Shown one piece after another: positions 9,744-45,843 of a stretch of DNA of 59,504 bases (its first letter is position 1; each line of letters starts with the position of its first letter). A program made the translations under genes and the position numbers. This DNA is from Candidatus Gallimonas merdigallinarum (GTDB taxonomy: Bacteria; Bacillota; Clostridia; Christensenellales; Borkfalkiaceae). The DNA lies in NCBI GenBank assembly GCA_904373325.1, contig CAJFFP010000005.1:1-59504 (forward strand). The letters are read 5' to 3'. Below the pieces are notes generated by a model. That model worked only from the letters and a program-made list of their open reading frames with translations. It had not been told where the DNA came from and searched no databases.

Positions 9744-9751
9744 ACAGGGCA

Positions 9752-9846
9752 GAAGAGTAGCCAAGGTGCGTTAAGTGTTGCGAAACGGGACGTTGTTCGC
9801 AAACGAAAGGGATTTCCCTGCGGTGCCGCGGCGCGTCCGCTCGAAT
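9752..9846 (+). promoter_or_regulatory. THF (tetrahydrofolate) riboswitch aptamer
   Basis: The stretch contains the conserved THF-riboswitch blocks in order: AGAGTAG, GCGTTAAGTG (9769-9778), ACGGGACGTTGT (9785-9796), ACGAA (9803-9807), GCGGTG (9820-9825) and TCCGCTC (9836-9842) closing helix P1 with GAG. P2 pairs GCC-AA-GG with CC-GC-GGC. It lies directly upstream of a FolT-type transporter gene, which is the classic target of this class. The layout resembles the known folT-associated riboswitches of Clostridia. Ligand binding is expected to lower folT expression. Confidence 0.88.
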
Positions 9847-9948: not shown

Positions 9949-10560
9949 ATGTTCTTTTCCACCTATTTCCGCGCCCTTTCGGCGGGAAAAAAGATTGCGC
10001 TCCTTGCCGTGTTCGTTGCGCTGAGCGTCGTCGTCAACTGTTTCTCCATTGATGTCAGTCCGAGCAACAAGATCGCGTTCACCTATGCCGTCTGCTTTTT
10101 TGCGGGCTATCTGCTGGGCGCCGTTCCCGCGTTCTTCGTGGCGCTCCTCGGCGACGTGTTCGGCTATCTCATCAATCCCGTCGGCGTATATTGGCTGTTC
10201 GGCGTTACGCTCGGGGTGTATGCGGCGATCGTCGGCGTCGTGACGAACCTGCCCTTCGGAACGGGCCGCGCCGCAACCTATGTCAAAGCCGCCGTCGCGC
10301 TCGTTCTGGGGTATGTGCTGATTACGGTTCTTTTGAACTCCGTCGTCAATTACTACTATGTGAAGATTTTTATCTGGCAGGGCGAAACAAACAAGCCTTT
10401 CCTCGTCTATCTCGGCGGAAGGCTCGCGTTCCAGACGGTGATCTACGCCGTCAACCTTGCCGTCTGCATGGCGCTTTTGCCCGTTATCGTGCATATCGGG
10501 CGCCCTCGGCTCAAAGGGAAAAAGAGGCGCCCCGCGGAAGGGGAGCAGGAACGCGTATGA
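9949..10560 (+). CDS. folT: Folate-family ECF transporter S component
   Basis: A 203-residue integral membrane protein with about six hydrophobic helices and the S-component style N-terminus LSAGKKIALLAVFVALSVVV. It should bind folate and work with the shared ECF energising module (EcfA1A2T), which is not in this window. Assignment to the folate family rests on the overall sequence (NCFSIDVSPSNKIAFTYAVCFFAGYLLG) and on the THF riboswitch immediately upstream. The start at ATG 9949 is preferred over an in-frame upstream codon at 9775 because the latter lies inside the aptamer and the GGGAGG at 9936-9941 is properly spaced to 9949. The C-terminal tail is basic. Confidence 0.9.
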   Translation: MFFSTYFRALSAGKKIALLAVFVALSVVVNCFSIDVSPSNKIAFTYAVCFFAGYLLGAVPAFFVALLGDVFGYLINPVGVYWLFGVTLGVYAAIVGVVTNLPFGTGRAATYVKAAVALVLGYVLITVLLNSVVNYYYVKIFIWQGETNKPFLVYLGGRLAFQTVIYAVNLAVCMALLPVIVHIGRPRLKGKKRRPAEGEQERV

Positions 10561-18313: not shown

Positions 18314-19108
18314 TTATTCCGTTTCGTCTGTCTGTTCATCCGCAAGATCGTCTGTCTTGTCGTCCTTTTTCTTTTTGCGGAAGGGCGGGAGAGGGCGGAA
18401 ATCGAACGCGCTCATGGCGGCGGGCTTTTTAAAAAACAGCGCCGTCATGGGAATGAGCAGCACGAGCGAGCCGCAGAGCATCAGGAACATATCCATCATG
18501 GTATCCACGAGCGCGGTGCCGCGCTTGTTGCTCACGATGAACGTTCCGTCGGGGAGTTCGGCGATCACGCCGTCAGCCCACTCCTGTGCGCTGGACGTGG
18601 GCGAAACGGTGTCTACCGTGAACTCGAACAGTTCCCAAAGGTACCCGAGTGCCAGCGTAATGAGGAGCGCAAACAGAAGCACAGAGATGGTTTTTCTCGT
18701 GCCTGCGGGCTGATTTCTCAAAAGCGCCAGCGCAAGCCCGATGCCCGCCGCCGAGAAAACGACGCCCGAACAAGCGTGCAGGATCCAGTCCCATACGTCG
18801 ATCATGCCGTAGAGGTCGTACACGTTCCCAAGAACGTTTGCGCTGAACGCAAACGCCGAAACGCAGATCTCCACGGGAAGGGGCGCGCGGAAACGGAACA
18901 CAAATTCCGCTGCAAAGACGGCGGAAATGCCCAAAAGTCCGAAAACCGTGTGCTGTACTTTGTGGAGATACCAGCCCGTTTCCATGGACTGCGTCGTAAA
19001 TTCCACCGTGCGCCAGATGAATCCGCCGAGCGTTGCGGCGATCAGCGCCGCCCAGACGATGAGCGCGGCGAGGTTGCGCGGAACGGAAAAGAAAGATTTC
19101 AGTTTCAT
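18314..19108 (-). CDS. Polytopic membrane protein, hypothetical
   Basis: A 264-residue protein with about six to seven hydrophobic helices and a short charged tail (FRKKKKDDKTDDLADEQTDETE). A central segment YDLYGMIDVWDWILHACSG, with Asp and His at a membrane edge, recalls a group of clostridial membrane proteins related to the DUF2238/YjdF family; this is a weak match. GGAG is five bases before the ATG, and a good promoter precedes it. It is a single-gene unit on the opposite strand from its neighbours. Function unknown. Confidence 0.75.
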   Translation of the reverse strand: MKLKSFFSVPRNLAALIVWAALIAATLGGFIWRTVEFTTQSMETGWYLHKVQHTVFGLLGISAVFAAEFVFRFRAPLPVEICVSAFAFSANVLGNVYDLYGMIDVWDWILHACSGVVFSAAGIGLALALLRNQPAGTRKTISVLLFALLITLALGYLWELFEFTVDTVSPTSSAQEWADGVIAELPDGTFIVSNKRGTALVDTMMDMFLMLCGSLVLLIPMTALFFKKPAAMSAFDFRPLPPFRKKKKDDKTDDLADEQTDETE

Positions 19109-19140
19109 AGAGACTCCGTATGCAGAGCGCTGCGGGAACT

Positions 19141-19169
19141 ATCATACCTTTTTTTTGCGCGCTTGTCAA
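19141..19169 (-). promoter_or_regulatory. SigA promoter of the polytopic membrane-protein gene
   Basis: Minus strand: TTGACA (19169-19164), 17 bases, TATGAT (19146-19141), about 32 bases before the ATG at 19108. Confidence 0.82.
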
Positions 19170-19257
19170 GAAAAGCGCGGCGGGTGGCGTATCTATGCGC
19201 GCAGTTGTGTAAATGAACCGCTTTTATGCGGGAATCCCGTTTTTTCATCGCATTTCA

Positions 19258-19287
19258 TTGACTTTTTATGCAATGCAATGGTATACT
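19258..19287 (+). promoter_or_regulatory. Histidine-operon promoter, -10 at an insertion edge
   Basis: TTGACT (19258-19263), 18 bases, TATACT (19282-19287). The last two -10 bases belong to the left end of a 279-bp structured element; the right end of that element regenerates TATAAT at 19561-19566. Transcripts from here would carry the whole element as a roughly 310-base leader before hisZ. Confidence 0.7.
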
Positions 19288-19562
19288 GTAAGGGAACAAT
19301 ACGAAGCACGCCTTTGGCGGAATCTTTTCGGCATCTTTTTGCTCATCTTCCTTGTAATACCTCGGTATTACTGCGTCATCTTCACCAAAATCTGACGCGA
19401 AAATCTTCACGCCAAAGGTGCAAAGCAATCAAAAGCGGCAAGATGAGCGGTCAGACGAGGCGAAGCTCGCAGCGCGTGCCGTGTGGCACGGGCAAGGGAT
19501 TCAACAAAGTATGAGCGCATAGTTTCCGCTTTTGATCGGTTTCGTATTACTTCCTTACAGTA
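19284..19562 (+). mobile_element. MITE-like element with terminal inverted repeats in the his leader
   Basis: The ends are 22-bp inverted repeats (19284-19305 and 19541-19562) matching at 19 positions, with identical tips TACTGTAAGG / CCTTACAGTA. Each tip is flanked by TA, and TATA stands at both junctions, as in TA-targeting IS630/mariner-type elements. Inside are two hairpin domains: one closed by GCACGCCTTTGGCG (19306-19319) with CGCCAAAGGTGC (19410-19421), holding a perfect GTAATACC/GGTATTAC hairpin (19354-19371), and one closed by ATCAAAAGCGG (19428-19438) with CCGCTTTTGAT (19526-19536). There is no coding capacity. It fills most of the 493-base gap before hisZ. It could alternatively be a native structured regulatory leader; no T-box motif was seen. 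Confidence 0.65.
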
Positions 19563-19601
19563 TAATGGAAGATAAGAAAATACCGGATACGGAGAAGGAA
19601 T

Positions 19602-20768
19602 ATGACCTTCCGAAAACTTCCTGCGGGCGTGCAGGATATTCTGCCTTCCGAGTGCAGGATTCTCAACGAGATCAGAGGAAAACTCTCTGCCCTGTTCGAG
19701 GCGAACGGGTACGAACCCGTGCTTTCTGCCGCCGTGGACTATTACGATACTTATTCGCAGATTAAAAGCGGACTTCCCGAAGAGCGGATGTTCAAATTTA
19801 CCGACGGCGACGGGAAGCTCCTTGTTCTGCGCCCCGACGCGACGCTCTCCATCTCCCGCATTGCGGCGACCAAGTTGGAGCGCGAAACGGCGCGCCTGTA
19901 TTATTTTGCCAACAAGTGGGACGCGCAGAACGCGGGCGGACTGAAAAGCCGCGAGATCATTCAGGCGGGCGTGGAGCGGCTTGGCGAGAGCGGCGCGTTT
20001 TCGGACGCGCAGACCATCGCGTTCGCCATCGACTGCGCGCGGGCGGCGGGGATCGAGGATCCCATCGTCGAGATCGGACACGTCGGTTACTTCAAAGGGA
20101 TTTTGGAGGCGTGCGGCGCGGCGCAGGCGGAGGAAGTCCGCGCCTGCATCAACGCAAAGGACGGGCTGAACGCCGAGCGGGTGCTCCGCGAGGCGGGCGC
20201 GGGCAGCGCGACGCTGGACGCGGTGCGCGCTCTTCCCACGCTCTTCGGCGGAACGGAAGTGTTCGACCGCGCCGAACGGCTGACGGAGAGCGAAGAGGCG
20301 CGCGCGGCGGTCGCGCACCTCAAAGAGGTCGGGCGCATTCTCGCCGAGATGGGTTACGAGGATAATATCTGTTTCGACCTCGGTACGGTCAGGCGGCTCT
20401 CCTATTATTCGGGCGTCGTGTTCTCGGGATTTGTGAAGGAGCTGGGCGTTCCCGTGCTCTCGGGCGGGCGGTACGATACGCTCGCAGACGATTTCGGCAA
20501 ACATATTCCCGCCGTCGGGTTCGCCATGGGGCTGAAACGCGTACTCGTCGCCCTCGAACGGCAGGGCAATCTTCCCGCTTCGCCCGCGCCCGACGTTGCC
20601 GTCGGCTGCGAACAGGGTGCGGAGCGCGGCGCGTACGCGCTTTGCCGAAAGCTGACCGCCGAGGGAAATCGGGTCACGCTGCTCGCCGAATACGGCGCGG
20701 AGGCGCTTGCCGCCGCGGCTGCGCGCGAGAAATATTTCGTCACGAAGGAGGGGGTTCGGAAGGTATGA
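19602..20768 (+). CDS. hisZ: ATP phosphoribosyltransferase regulatory subunit HisZ
   Basis: A 388-residue class II aminoacyl-tRNA-synthetase-like protein lacking the C-terminal tRNA-binding domain of HisRS. The N-terminus LPAGVQDILPSECR and the segments FKFTDGDGKLLVLRPD and GGRYDTLADDFG mark HisZ. It pairs with the short form of HisG, encoded next with a four-base overlap, to form the hetero-octameric first enzyme of histidine synthesis that is inhibited by histidine. AAGGA precedes the ATG. It is the first gene of the eight-gene his operon. Confidence 0.95.
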   Translation: MTFRKLPAGVQDILPSECRILNEIRGKLSALFEANGYEPVLSAAVDYYDTYSQIKSGLPEERMFKFTDGDGKLLVLRPDATLSISRIAATKLERETARLYYFANKWDAQNAGGLKSREIIQAGVERLGESGAFSDAQTIAFAIDCARAAGIEDPIVEIGHVGYFKGILEACGAAQAEEVRACINAKDGLNAERVLREAGAGSATLDAVRALPTLFGGTEVFDRAERLTESEEARAAVAHLKEVGRILAEMGYEDNICFDLGTVRRLSYYSGVVFSGFVKELGVPVLSGGRYDTLADDFGKHIPAVGFAMGLKRVLVALERQGNLPASPAPDVAVGCEQGAERGAYALCRKLTAEGNRVTLLAEYGAEALAAAAAREKYFVTKEGVRKV

Positions 20769-23841: not shown

Positions 23842-24543
23842 ATGAAACTCTATCCTGCGATCGACGTACTCGGCGGGCGCGCCGTGCGTCTGCTATATGG
23901 AAAACGGGATCAGGTCACCGACTACGGCGATCCCGTGGACTGCGCCAAACGCTGGGTGGACGAGGGCGCGGAGATCCTGCACGTCGTCGATCTCTCGGGC
24001 GCGTTCGGCGAAGCGGACGGCTTTGAGAAGGTGTTGGAACGCATCGCAAAGCTGGGCGTTCCCGTGCAGTCGGGCGGGGGGCTTCGGTCGATGGCGGAAA
24101 TCCACCGCCGTTTCCGCGCGGGCGCGGACCGCGTGGTGCTCGGCACCGTCTGCGTGGAACATCCCGAAGTGCTGTACGAGGCGGTGGAGCGGTATCGCGA
24201 TAAGATCGTGGCGGGAATCGACGCGAAGGACGGGCGTCTCGCCGTGCGCGGCTGGACGCAGCTTGCCGACAAAGACGCGTTTGAATTCGGCTGCGAGGCG
24301 AAGGCGCTGGGCGTGACGGATGCGGTGTTCACGGACATCGGGCGGGACGGCGCGCTTTCGGGCGTCAACGTGGAAGAGACGGTGCGCATGGGCGAAACGG
24401 GTCTGAACATCATCGCCTCGGGCGGCGTGCGCGATCTGAATGATCTGCGCGCGCTTCAAGCGCAGGGCGTGTACGGCGTTATTCTGGGGCGCGCGCTCTA
24501 TACGGGCGCGATCTCCCTCAGAGACGCATTCGAGGTGCGCTGA
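23842..24543 (+). CDS. hisA: ProFAR isomerase HisA
   Basis: A 233-residue (beta/alpha)8-barrel enzyme that isomerises ProFAR to PRFAR. The catalytic aspartate is in [14 protein letters not shown], and phosphate-binding glycine motifs ([16 protein letters not shown]) are present in both barrel halves. GAGGTCACAG precedes the ATG. Its stop touches the hisF ATG by one base. It shows the half-barrel repeat typical of HisA/HisF. Confidence 0.97.
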
Positions 24544-25310
24544 TGGTACGCAAAAGACTCATTCCCTGTCTGGATTTAAAGGACGGGCGCGTCGTCAAGG
24601 GCGTCAATTTCGTCAGCCTGATCGACGCGGGCGACCCCGTCGAGACGGCGAAACTTTACAACGCGTTCGGCGCGGACGAGATCGTCTTTCTCGATATTAC
24701 CGCGAGCTACCGCGGGGATTCTCCCATGTGGGACGTCATCGCGCGGGCGAGCGAGCAGGTGTTCCTCCCGCTCACCGTGGGCGGCGGAATGCGCACGACG
24801 GAGGATTTCAGACGGATGCTCGCCTGCGGGGCGGATAAGATCGCGGTCAACTCCGCGGCGATCCGCAATCCCGACCTCATCACCGACGCCGCGATGAAGT
24901 TCGGCCGTCAGTGCGTGGTGCTCGCGGTGGACGCGAAGCGCGGCGAAAACGGGCGGTACGACGTCTATCTCAACGGCGGCAGGGTGAACACGGGGCTGGA
25001 CGCGATCGAATGGATCTGCGAGGGTGTCAAGCGCGGCGCGGGCGAAGTCCTGCTCACGAGCATGGACCGCGACGGCACGCGGGCGGGGTACGACCTCGAA
25101 CTCACCCGTCAGGCGGCGGAGGCGGTGAACGTCCCCGTGATCGCCTCGGGCGGCGCGGGCAAGATGAGCCACTTCTACGACGTGCTCACCGAGGGCGGCG
25201 CGGACGCGGCGCTCGCGGCGTCGCTCTTCCACTTCGGCATCATCAATATGCGCGACTTAAAAAGTTATCTCGCGGAGCGGGGCGTTCCCGTCCGCATGGA
25301 GGGCAACTGA
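24543..25310 (+). CDS. hisF: Imidazole glycerol phosphate synthase, cyclase subunit
   Basis: A 255-residue barrel enzyme that with HisH converts PRFAR to imidazole glycerol phosphate and AICAR. The catalytic residues lie in [17 protein letters not shown] and [13 protein letters not shown], and phosphate-binding loops VGGGMRT and ASGGAGKM are present. The start overlaps hisA by one base; hisIE begins two bases after the stop. Confidence 0.97.
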
Positions 25311-44310: not shown

Positions 44311-45843
44311 ATGAAAAAGACGAAAATTTTTGCCGACGCGAATCTGAACGTCGGCGCGATCGACAGACACATTTTCGGCTCGTTCATCGAGCATCTCGGC
44401 AGGGCGGTCTATGAGGGAATTTACGAACCCGGGCATCCCGCGGCGGACGAAAACGGATTCCGCAAAGACGTCATCGGTCTGATCAAGGAACTCAACGTGC
44501 CGATCGTCCGTTACCCGGGCGGAAACTTCCTTTCGGGGTACGATTGGCGGGACGGGATCGGTCCGAAGGAGAAACGCCCCGTCCGCCTCGATCTGGCGTG
44601 GTTCTCCACCGAGACGAACGAGTTCGGCACGGACGAATTCATGAAGTGGTGCCGCATTGCGGGAATCGAGCCGATGATGGCGGTAAATATGGGGACGGGT
44701 ACGATTTTGGACGCCGCGCGCCTCGTCGAATACTGCAATCACCCGGGCGGCACGACGATCTCCGAAATGCGCCGCGCAAACGGCGCGGATCAGCCGTATA
44801 ACGTCGAATATTGGTGCATCGGCAACGAGATGGACGGACCGTGGCAGATCGGGCATCTCACCGCCGAAGAGTACGGCAGAAAGGCGTTGGAGGCGGCGAA
44901 GGTCATGCGCTGGGCAAACGGCGAAATGGACGGCGCGGCGGGTCCGAACGGGAAATTGAAGCTCATCGTTTCAGGCTCTTCCAATCACGAAATGCCCACC
45001 TTCCCCGAATGGGACAGAACGGTGCTCGAACACACCTACAAGCAGATCGATCTCCTTTCCATGCACCGCTACTATATGTACAGCGCGTCGCGCAAACGCC
45101 CGCTCGAAGACTTCTTGGGCAGCGCGGACGACATGAGCGAGTATATCGGCACGCTTCAAGCGACCATCGAGTACGTGCGCGCCAAGGAACGCTCGCAAAA
45201 GCGGGTCGGGATCTCCTTTGACGAGTGGAATATCTGGACGGTCAACGCGCCCCGCCACGAACCGCTCTGGAAACGCGCGCCGCACCTGTTGGAGGACGTC
45301 TATACCTTCCAGGATGCGCTCGTGTTTGCGGGGCTGATGAACACGCTGCTCAACCACTGCGACGCGGTCAAAACGGCTTGCCTTGCGCAGCTCGTCAACG
45401 TCATCGCGCCCATCATGACGGAGAAGGGCGGCAGAACGTTCCGTCAGACCTCCTTTTATCCCTTCCGCGCCATTGCGAACAACGCGAGCGGCAAGACGGT
45501 GCGCGCGATCTCCGATTCGGATACGTTCGAGAATATGTTCGGGCAGGCACGGTATATCAACGAAGCCGTCACGCACGATAAGGCAAAGCGGGAAGTCTGC
45601 GTTTCGCTGTGCAACTACGCGCAGGAAGCGCGCGCGGCGGAGCTGGAACTGCGTTCCTTCGGCGATCTCCGTGCGGCGGAATATATCGAGATGACTTCGT
45701 CCGATCTCTTCGCGGTCAACTCGTTCGACCGCCCCGACGCGGTCGTGCCGCAGGAGAAGGAGCTGCCTTCCGTGAAGGACGGATCCCGCGTTTCGCTCAC
45801 GCTGCCCGCCATGAGTTGGAGCTTCTTGAAGTTCAGATACTGA
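44311..45843 (+). CDS. abfA: GH51 alpha-L-arabinofuranosidase
   Basis: A 510-residue retaining glycosidase releasing L-arabinose from alpha-linked arabinofuranosyl residues. Catalytic glutamates are E173 in IGNEMDG (acid/base) and E305 in SFDEWNIW (nucleophile), near the positions known for Geobacillus AbfA. The N-terminal DRHIFGSFIEHLGRAVYEGI is typical of the family. No signal peptide, so action is intracellular on imported arabino-oligosaccharides. GGGAGG precedes the ATG. Together with GH127 and the arabinose operon it makes a complete route from both anomers of arabinofuranosides to xylulose 5-phosphate. Confidence 0.95.
   Translation: MKKTKIFADANLNVGAIDRHIFGSFIEHLGRAVYEGIYEPGHPAADENGFRKDVIGLIKELNVPIVRYPGGNFLSGYDWRDGIGPKEKRPVRLDLAWFSTETNEFGTDEFMKWCRIAGIEPMMAVNMGTGTILDAARLVEYCNHPGGTTISEMRRANGADQPYNVEYWCIGNEMDGPWQIGHLTAEEYGRKALEAAKVMRWANGEMDGAAGPNGKLKLIVSGSSNHEMPTFPEWDRTVLEHTYKQIDLLSMHRYYMYSASRKRPLEDFLGSADDMSEYIGTLQATIEYVRAKERSQKRVGISFDEWNIWTVNAPRHEPLWKRAPHLLEDVYTFQDALVFAGLMNTLLNHCDAVKTACLAQLVNVIAPIMTEKGGRTFRQTSFYPFRAIANNASGKTVRAISDSDTFENMFGQARYINEAVTHDKAKREVCVSLCNYAQEARAAELELRSFGDLRAAEYIEMTSSDLFAVNSFDRPDAVVPQEKELPSVKDGSRVSLTLPAMSWSFLKFRY

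Follow-up and report, generated by a model that had tools for sequence, protein, structure and literature searches.

A short non-coding repeat, probably a MITE, splits the -10 box of the histidine operon promoter in Candidatus Gallimonas merdigallinarum and recurs in related gut Clostridia

Among described systems, the Correia repeat enclosed elements (CREE) of Neisseria offer the closest parallel in promoter geometry. In the portion of their description drawn on here, a native -35 box is joined by a -10 box lying in the first six bases of the element, and the resulting 'Snyder promoter' can drive a gene through the element; insertion takes place often at TA (in two cases at CA), and the target is duplicated (PMC2649163). 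The ATon elements of Aedes aegypti, as far as the sections of PMC3422177 consulted describe them, insert at AT, have empty sites without TA, and belong with no known autonomous partner. For the small dispersed BOX and SPRITE repeats of Streptococcus pneumoniae, possible RNA structures are discussed in the excerpts used (PMC10969869, PMC3049150). A search of the open-licence PMC literature returned no such element for Gallimonas or Christensenellales, no bacterial AT-specific MITE and no promoter-seeking transposon.

The element described here, which lies upstream of hisZ in Candidatus Gallimonas merdigallinarum, shares with CREE, as these are described in that portion, a short non-coding body with inverted repeats, many copies upstream of genes, a directional core, length variants and, in its sequence, the geometry of the Snyder promoter, that is, a host -35 box and a -10 box completed by the first bases of the element (PMC2649163). 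Compared by description, it differs in its host organisms, in its greater length with a conserved two-domain fold, and in bringing no gain of TA at hisZ (PMC2649163). With ATon, on the sections consulted, it shares non-autonomy, inverted ends, an A outside the left TA, a T outside the right TA and empty sites without TA, while ATon belongs to a mosquito genome and has no tie to bacterial promoters (PMC3422177); on this comparison the likeness is one of mode and not evidence of common descent. BOX, RUP and SPRITE of Streptococcus pneumoniae are, by description in the excerpts used, likewise small dispersed repeats (PMC10969869, PMC3049150). Size and a TA at the element edge recall the MITEs of the IS630/Tc1-mariner group. 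By form and behaviour the element is a MITE, being short and non-coding, with terminal inverted repeats, copies scattered over unrelated places and orthologous sites that are empty; we assign it to none of the IS630/mariner, Correia, IS110 or IS200 groups.

The window analysed is a stretch of 59,504 nucleotides (contig CAJFFP010000005.1 of assembly GCA_904373325.1). The features of the hisZ upstream region are as follows.

19258..19263, + strand: native -35 box TTGACT of the his promoter (promoter scan; TTGACA or TTGACT in 29/29 hisZ orthologues read)
19282..19287, + strand: rebuilt -10 box TATACT, made of flanking TA and the first four bases of the element (sequence, promoter scan)
19284..19562, + strand: mobile element of 279 bp, or 277 bp if AT is duplicated (copies, shared boundaries, empty orthologous sites)
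19284..19307, + strand: left terminal inverted repeat (arm complementarity; the same end occurs alone at other promoter-like places)
19309..19420, + strand: inner hairpin domain 1 (fold and pair counts, helices 2-5)
19428..19536, + strand: inner hairpin domain 2 (fold and pair counts, helices 6-8)
19539..19562, + strand: right terminal inverted repeat (arm complementarity)
19561..19566, + strand: right junction TATAAT, made of element TA and the leftover native TAAT (sequence)
19602..20768, + strand: first gene of the his operon, which we take to be hisZ from the downstream his genes, recognised by eye (ORF; Pfam tRNA-synt_His; orthologues)

The first-pass annotation had proposed a discrete element of 279 bp inserted in the -10 box of this promoter, and the anatomy bears this out. 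Its 22-bp ends with 19 matching positions agree with a check by eye, and the inverted arms 19282-19305 and 19541-19564 (24 nt) are 88% complementary. The ends close a two-domain fold, in which both of the inner hairpin domains claimed earlier are present, at -117.4 kcal/mol against a shuffle mean of -75.7 (z -9.2, with 0 of 200 shuffles as good). Coding capacity had been denied to the element, and the ORFs of at least 80 aa that overlap it indeed run over its edges and are not gene-like. The promoter scan reported three promoter-like sites in 19100-19700 (shuffle mean 0.7), among them TTGACT-18-TATACT at 19258-19287, the box read earlier at the left junction; it reported none at the right junction despite the TATAAT there. 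The putative ribosome site of hisZ near 19590 would be untouched by the insertion.

Copies of the element are dispersed over the genome of the window and over relatives. In the own genome, 38 BLAST pieces were merged by hand into 26 places, hence about 26 copies or fragments, of which 19 are internal and seven lie at contig ends; some of the seven may be halves of one copy. The element spans ends of contigs C7, C13, C15, C20, C27, C31 and C37, and copy numbers are uncertain because it breaks the assembly in this way. The copies have common ends and unrelated flanks, with lengths of 137, 224, 229, 278-285, 347, 373 and 490 bp. Nineteen downstream proteins, adjoining 16 internal and three contig-end copies, were tested against Pfam; 18 gave a match, no two of them alike, and one gave none.

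Beyond this genome, the 279-bp query found a match in 9 of 101 genomes (own counted; at most seven candidates scored per genome), and the exact end motif was found patchily within the family, in 17 of 398 genomes (own counted) and 4 of 18 genera. Four genomes (G001, G037, G048 and G055) hold copies by the query without the exact end motif, and both searches combined place the element in at least 21 genomes. The end-motif scan of genome contigs gave 95 stretches with 110 ends, most of which pair within 520 bp or run off the contig; the 80 stretches listed with titles come from Candidatus Gallimonas, Candidatus Coproplasma and uncultured Clostridia. Viral contigs gave 0 matches, and plasmids and phages gave none. 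From 64 candidate spans 45 complete copies were kept, the 19 dropped being short or false spans, and it is these other copies that set the element boundaries. Such dispersal was one of the marks by which the first-pass annotation would recognise a mobile element, and it supports a MITE.

Several copies deviate from the standard form. In relatives, some ends pair at a distance of about 60 bp, which suggests copies reduced to the ends; L241 is a 52-bp form, while L321 is a non-coding form of 634 bp. Lone left ends, with the rest of the element absent, stand where host -10 regions would be in L132 (G000:C4:52174, a promoter-like place in the own genome), in L301 at 2206 and in L273. In G055:C54 (L238, from 1570) an 18-bp remnant, TACTGTAAGGGAACAGTA, occupies a promoter-like place and is followed by TAAT; it looks like an internal deletion or an imprecise excision that left a -10 box. 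In L254 (5085-5870) two copies abut, as though one had inserted at the terminus of its neighbour. L066, L069 and L068 bear variant ends, TAGTG/CACTA and TCGTG/CACGA, with both ends changed together. Copies also lie between recF-like and dnaA-like genes (names by eye) in two species, G048 (L147) and G115 (L219).

Relatives also supply the empty site at hisZ. Of 90 relatives searched, 31 gave a strong hisZ match, and 29 loci were read. All 29 show an uncut promoter, with TTGACA or TTGACT, 17 or 18 bases, and TATAAT or TATACT; no element end turned up in their upstream 700 bases, or in the shorter stretch available before a contig end. In the three nearest orthologues (82-85% identity in HisZ) the -35 region and a large part of the spacer are shared with the window. 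Thus, among the genomes read, the insertion is confined to the genome of the window. The empty his promoters that had been named as support for a mobile element are therefore present, and the splitting of the -10 box is confirmed by sequence and orthologous promoters alike. Excision of 279 bp gives TTGACT-18-TATAAT, as foreseen, and from the promoter spacing of the orthologues the net insertion length at hisZ is 279 bp.

Upstream regions orthologous to those of other copies were collected from five close genomes, with protein starts of 18 of the 23 neighbouring proteins as queries, and each of 14 occupied loci was set against its best-scoring orthologue (drawn, in the case of hisZ, from 7 of the 29 orthologues). 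The plain 279-bp join scored best at 8 of the 14 and was tied at one, hisZ. The clearest empty sites, each with an orthologue carrying an uncut TATAAT or TATACT, are L121, L125, L115 and L122. Another join was better by 2-3 points at five loci: an extra TA at L116, L109 and L117, a TA fewer at L114a, and four more at L114b.

The junctions follow a simple rule. Ends were treated as distinct when their final 30 flank bases differed, which gave 218; in 211 of these an A stands immediately outside the element, and in 176 the flank closes with TA. Of the 45 complete copies, 30 read TA/element/TA, 44 have the left A, and 44 the right T. Such A and T flanks, taken with empty sites that lack an extra TA, indicate insertion at AT. 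Duplication of AT around 277 bp and entry of 279 bp between A and T would leave identical sequences, just as a 275-bp core with one duplicated TATA is the same arithmetic as 279 bp without duplication. A 4-bp TATA duplication suits hisZ, but the 15 of 45 copies that do not have TA at both junctions speak against it, and the flanks of copies such as L048 or L072 do not permit it.

This rule bears on the IS630/mariner label that had been suggested for the element. A MITE of that group would duplicate its TA target, and the short inverted ends, the absence of coding capacity, the TA beside most ends and the slightly better score of an extra TA at 3 of 14 loci are all in keeping with it. However, the extra TA is absent from 29/29 hisZ orthologues read, the plain join is best at 8 of the 14 loci, the conserved A and T stand outside the terminal TA, and the DDE_3 transposase (PF13358) was found in 0 of 8 genomes, an absence that is weak evidence in drafts, which lose repeats. 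The label is thus not supported at hisZ or at most other loci, and we give membership in this group very little credence.

The AT-inserting ends of the element meet host promoters in a recurrent geometry. Counted from the junction, offset 25 holds TTG in 33 of the 218 ends, whereas other offsets (24-26 excepted) have a mean of 4.2 and a maximum of 9; at offset 25, flank TA and element TACT make a -10 box at the proper spacing from the -35 box. Ends were called promoter-like when TTG, or at least 5/6 of TTGACA, stood at spacing 16-18. By this measure, the own genome has 14 promoter-like left ends and 1 promoter-like right end, out of 22 each, compared with 16 of 67 left and 16 of 83 right ends in relatives; among 24 ends of unclear side (one own, 23 of relatives), six are promoter-like, all in relatives. 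In two species a copy lies immediately before the same MscS-type gene (Pfam), in G118:C68 (L205) and in G000:C27 (L124); the orientations are opposite, and these are probably two separate insertions.

An element that recognises promoters as such, through melted -10 DNA or RNA polymerase and beyond the mere TATA, might produce the TTG peak exactly at -35 spacing, the 14 of 22 own left ends and the repeated choice of the MscS-type gene. But intergenic TATA sites of the window are themselves promoter-like in 13 of 62 site-orientations, close to the rates at the ends of relatives, and the own ends (15 promoter-like in 22 copies) compared with 13 of 31 TATA sites give P 0.09 in a rough test. Promoter insertions in relatives thus look no commoner than expected of intergenic TATA sites, and they look like a by-product of TATA choice and loss of insertions in genes. 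For relatives, promoter-specific targeting is superfluous, and overall we consider promoter recognition rather unlikely.

Orientation is a separate matter. The bias of 14:1 at promoter-like ends of the own genome (P 0.001) differs from the 16:16 of relatives (P 0.004), and with relatives at 16:16 it is not explained by target choice. Gene context, counted with gene predictions from a simple in-house caller, points weakly in the same direction: the split in co-directional gaps is 10:2 for own copies (P 0.04) and even, 10:10, for those of relatives, the difference having P 0.08. None of the copies placed (18 own, 39 in relatives) lies in a convergent gap, and copies overlap predicted genes in 10 of 39 cases in relatives and 1 of 18 in the own genome. 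A co-oriented gene starts 9-120 nt downstream of 16 of the 19 internal own copies, the exceptions being L112, L118 and L131. On the - strand of the element a terminator-like hairpin lies at 19416-19391 (two such sites in the region, shuffles mean 0.6); as a guess, it could make reversed copies harmful and so produce the bias.

The first-pass annotation had also allowed for a new regulatory RNA, which would be found only before hisZ and show compensatory base changes. Of these two marks, the compensatory changes are present and the confinement to hisZ is not. The fold was compared over 35 complete copies, using the window's own fold, a choice that favours that fold, minus 4 of 97 pairs kept by less than 60% of copies. 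Of the cells in the remaining 93 pairs, 94.8% are paired, although helix 5 of domain 1 is kept in just 71% of cells. Both sides changed in 25 of the 93 pairs, 21 of these outside the terminal helix, and compensatory cells number 97, where shuffles give 21.5 and slid structures 6-36. Further pair types give a weaker signal (58 vs 53, reached by 9 of 500 shuffles), and the structure proposed by RNAalifold itself has both-sided change in 18 of 60 pairs.

Compensatory changes are not in themselves proof of RNA function, because hairpin-templated correction of imperfect palindromes, or DNA folding, can produce the same pattern. A leader RNA acting from one strand is expected to show an excess of G-T over A-C. 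Across all 93 pairs of the + fold the counts are 150 G-T and 66 A-C, a set that admits G-T by construction; in the 86 + fold pairs that are Watson-Crick in the window they are 59 and 62, and in the 76 Watson-Crick pairs common to the + and - folds, 39 and 55. The + strand folds better in 13 of the 35 copies. With no G-T excess in the fairest pair sets, the fold seems to belong to the repeat as DNA, or to either strand that happens to be in use. Rfam gave no match over the element at the gathering score, and weak sub-threshold matches in five loci. Elsewhere in the window, Rfam identifies a THF riboswitch at 9751-9843 on the + strand (RF01831, 65.6 bits), upstream of a gene for the substrate-binding component of an ECF transporter (9949-10560; Pfam PF12822/PF07155), plausibly a folate transporter.

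A signal-sensing leader of the riboswitch kind, spread across many genes, would agree with the stability of the fold (z -9.2), the compensatory cells in excess of all controls, the co-oriented genes behind 16 of 19 internal own copies, the 14:1 orientation and the G-T excess of the full, biased pair set. Against it, the downstream genes belong to different Pfam families throughout (18 of 19 with a match), the shared and the Watson-Crick pair sets show no strand preference, just 13 of 35 copies fold better on the + strand, relatives carry the element in both orientations at promoter-like ends (16:16) and in co-directional gaps (10:10), 10 of 39 relative copies overlap predicted genes, and the element is missing before 29/29 hisZ orthologues read. 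As the main reading, a regulatory RNA is rejected on Rfam, the hisZ orthologues, the strand comparison and the downstream families taken together, and we consider it very improbable.

As to the enzyme that moves the MITE, no autonomous copy was recognised in the 95 end-motif stretches, where ORFs were judged by eye in drafts that break at repeats. Eight stretches inspected singly (L301, L273, L241, L252, L255, L280, L321 and L330) proved to be lone ends, short remnants or non-coding longer forms, and showed no transposase-like gene by eye. Among five transposase families sought in 8 draft genomes, PF13358 and PF01609 gave no match, PF01548 three (one below the cut-off), PF01797 two and PF00665 four; no family is common to all 8, and no cognate transposase was identified in these genomes or stretches. 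The single Y1 (IS200-type) gene found in the own genome lies about 1.2 kb from a damaged long-form copy on contig C21 (G000:C21:22756-23115, L338, and 24352-24658, L129). The left part of that copy is replaced by a phosphodiesterase-like gene fragment (by eye), and C21 also carries an rve-domain gene, at 45210.

A single-strand enzyme of the IS200/REP type, or a bridge-RNA enzyme of the IS110 type, with the conserved fold as substrate or guide, might account for exact insertion, as neither needs a target duplication, and would suit a fold kept about equally on both strands and the neighbouring Y1 gene on C21. Yet Y1 occurs in 2 of the 8 genomes, one being the own, and IS110 (DEDD) in 3 of 8, one of them weak, and not in the own genome. 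Moreover, inverted ends that match almost perfectly and vary in concert are more characteristic of DDE transposons. Mobilisation by either type appears to us to be of low probability.

All considered, the element is very probably a non-autonomous MITE of Candidatus Gallimonas and related gut Clostridia, which inserts at AT, rebuilds promoters, and would have a weak effect or none on its host. Its entry point would lie between A and T, usually within a TATA, and would bring either a duplication of AT or none, without gain of TA. Insertions within genes would probably be selected out, and in this G+C-rich genome many intergenic TATA sites are -10 boxes; the many surviving copies in promoters may thus reflect loss of gene insertions together with the frequency of -10 boxes among intergenic TATA sites. 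Since its ends begin with TACT, landing after a flank TA would create a TATACT box behind a host -35 box, in either orientation, and the gene could still be transcribed, its mRNA now beginning with a folded leader of roughly 300 nt.

At hisZ, the element went into the -10 box in the lineage of the window and left a rebuilt -10-like box; from it we predict a transcription start at about 19293-19296, a his mRNA leader of roughly 300 nt and an effect on expression that is presumably tolerated. The earlier claim of a preserved promoter with an added folded leader thus stands for the promoter, as read from the bases at the junction, and the leader on hisZ mRNA is its probable consequence. The element looks like a tolerated parasite and not like a special regulator of histidine genes.

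Four points weigh against this MITE reading: no autonomous copy was recognised in the stretches inspected, and no transposase family tested is common to the 8 genomes; 5 of 14 loci score 2-3 points better with another join, three of them with an extra TA; the conserved inner fold exceeds the needs of a MITE defined by its terminal repeats; and the 14:1 orientation bias of the own genome is left without account. A wider reading would make the element a bacterial counterpart of ATon, moved by a transposition system distinct from the families tested, whose substrate is the two-domain fold kept on both strands, with ends that rebuild -10 boxes and a tolerated leader, oriented in this genome, at housekeeping promoters such as the his promoter; we regard this as unlikely, though not far-fetched.

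For annotators, leaders of this kind should not be mistaken for riboswitches. Insertion at AT with no TA gained, and the failure to find a transposase, suggest an enzyme not yet linked to such repeats. The hisZ locus provides a clean natural case, from uncultured gut Clostridia and with close relatives supplying the empty sites, of a promoter core that still looks usable after an insertion into it, and it raises the testable question of whether the ends of elements evolve towards restoring the -10 box, allowing insertions in promoters to survive.
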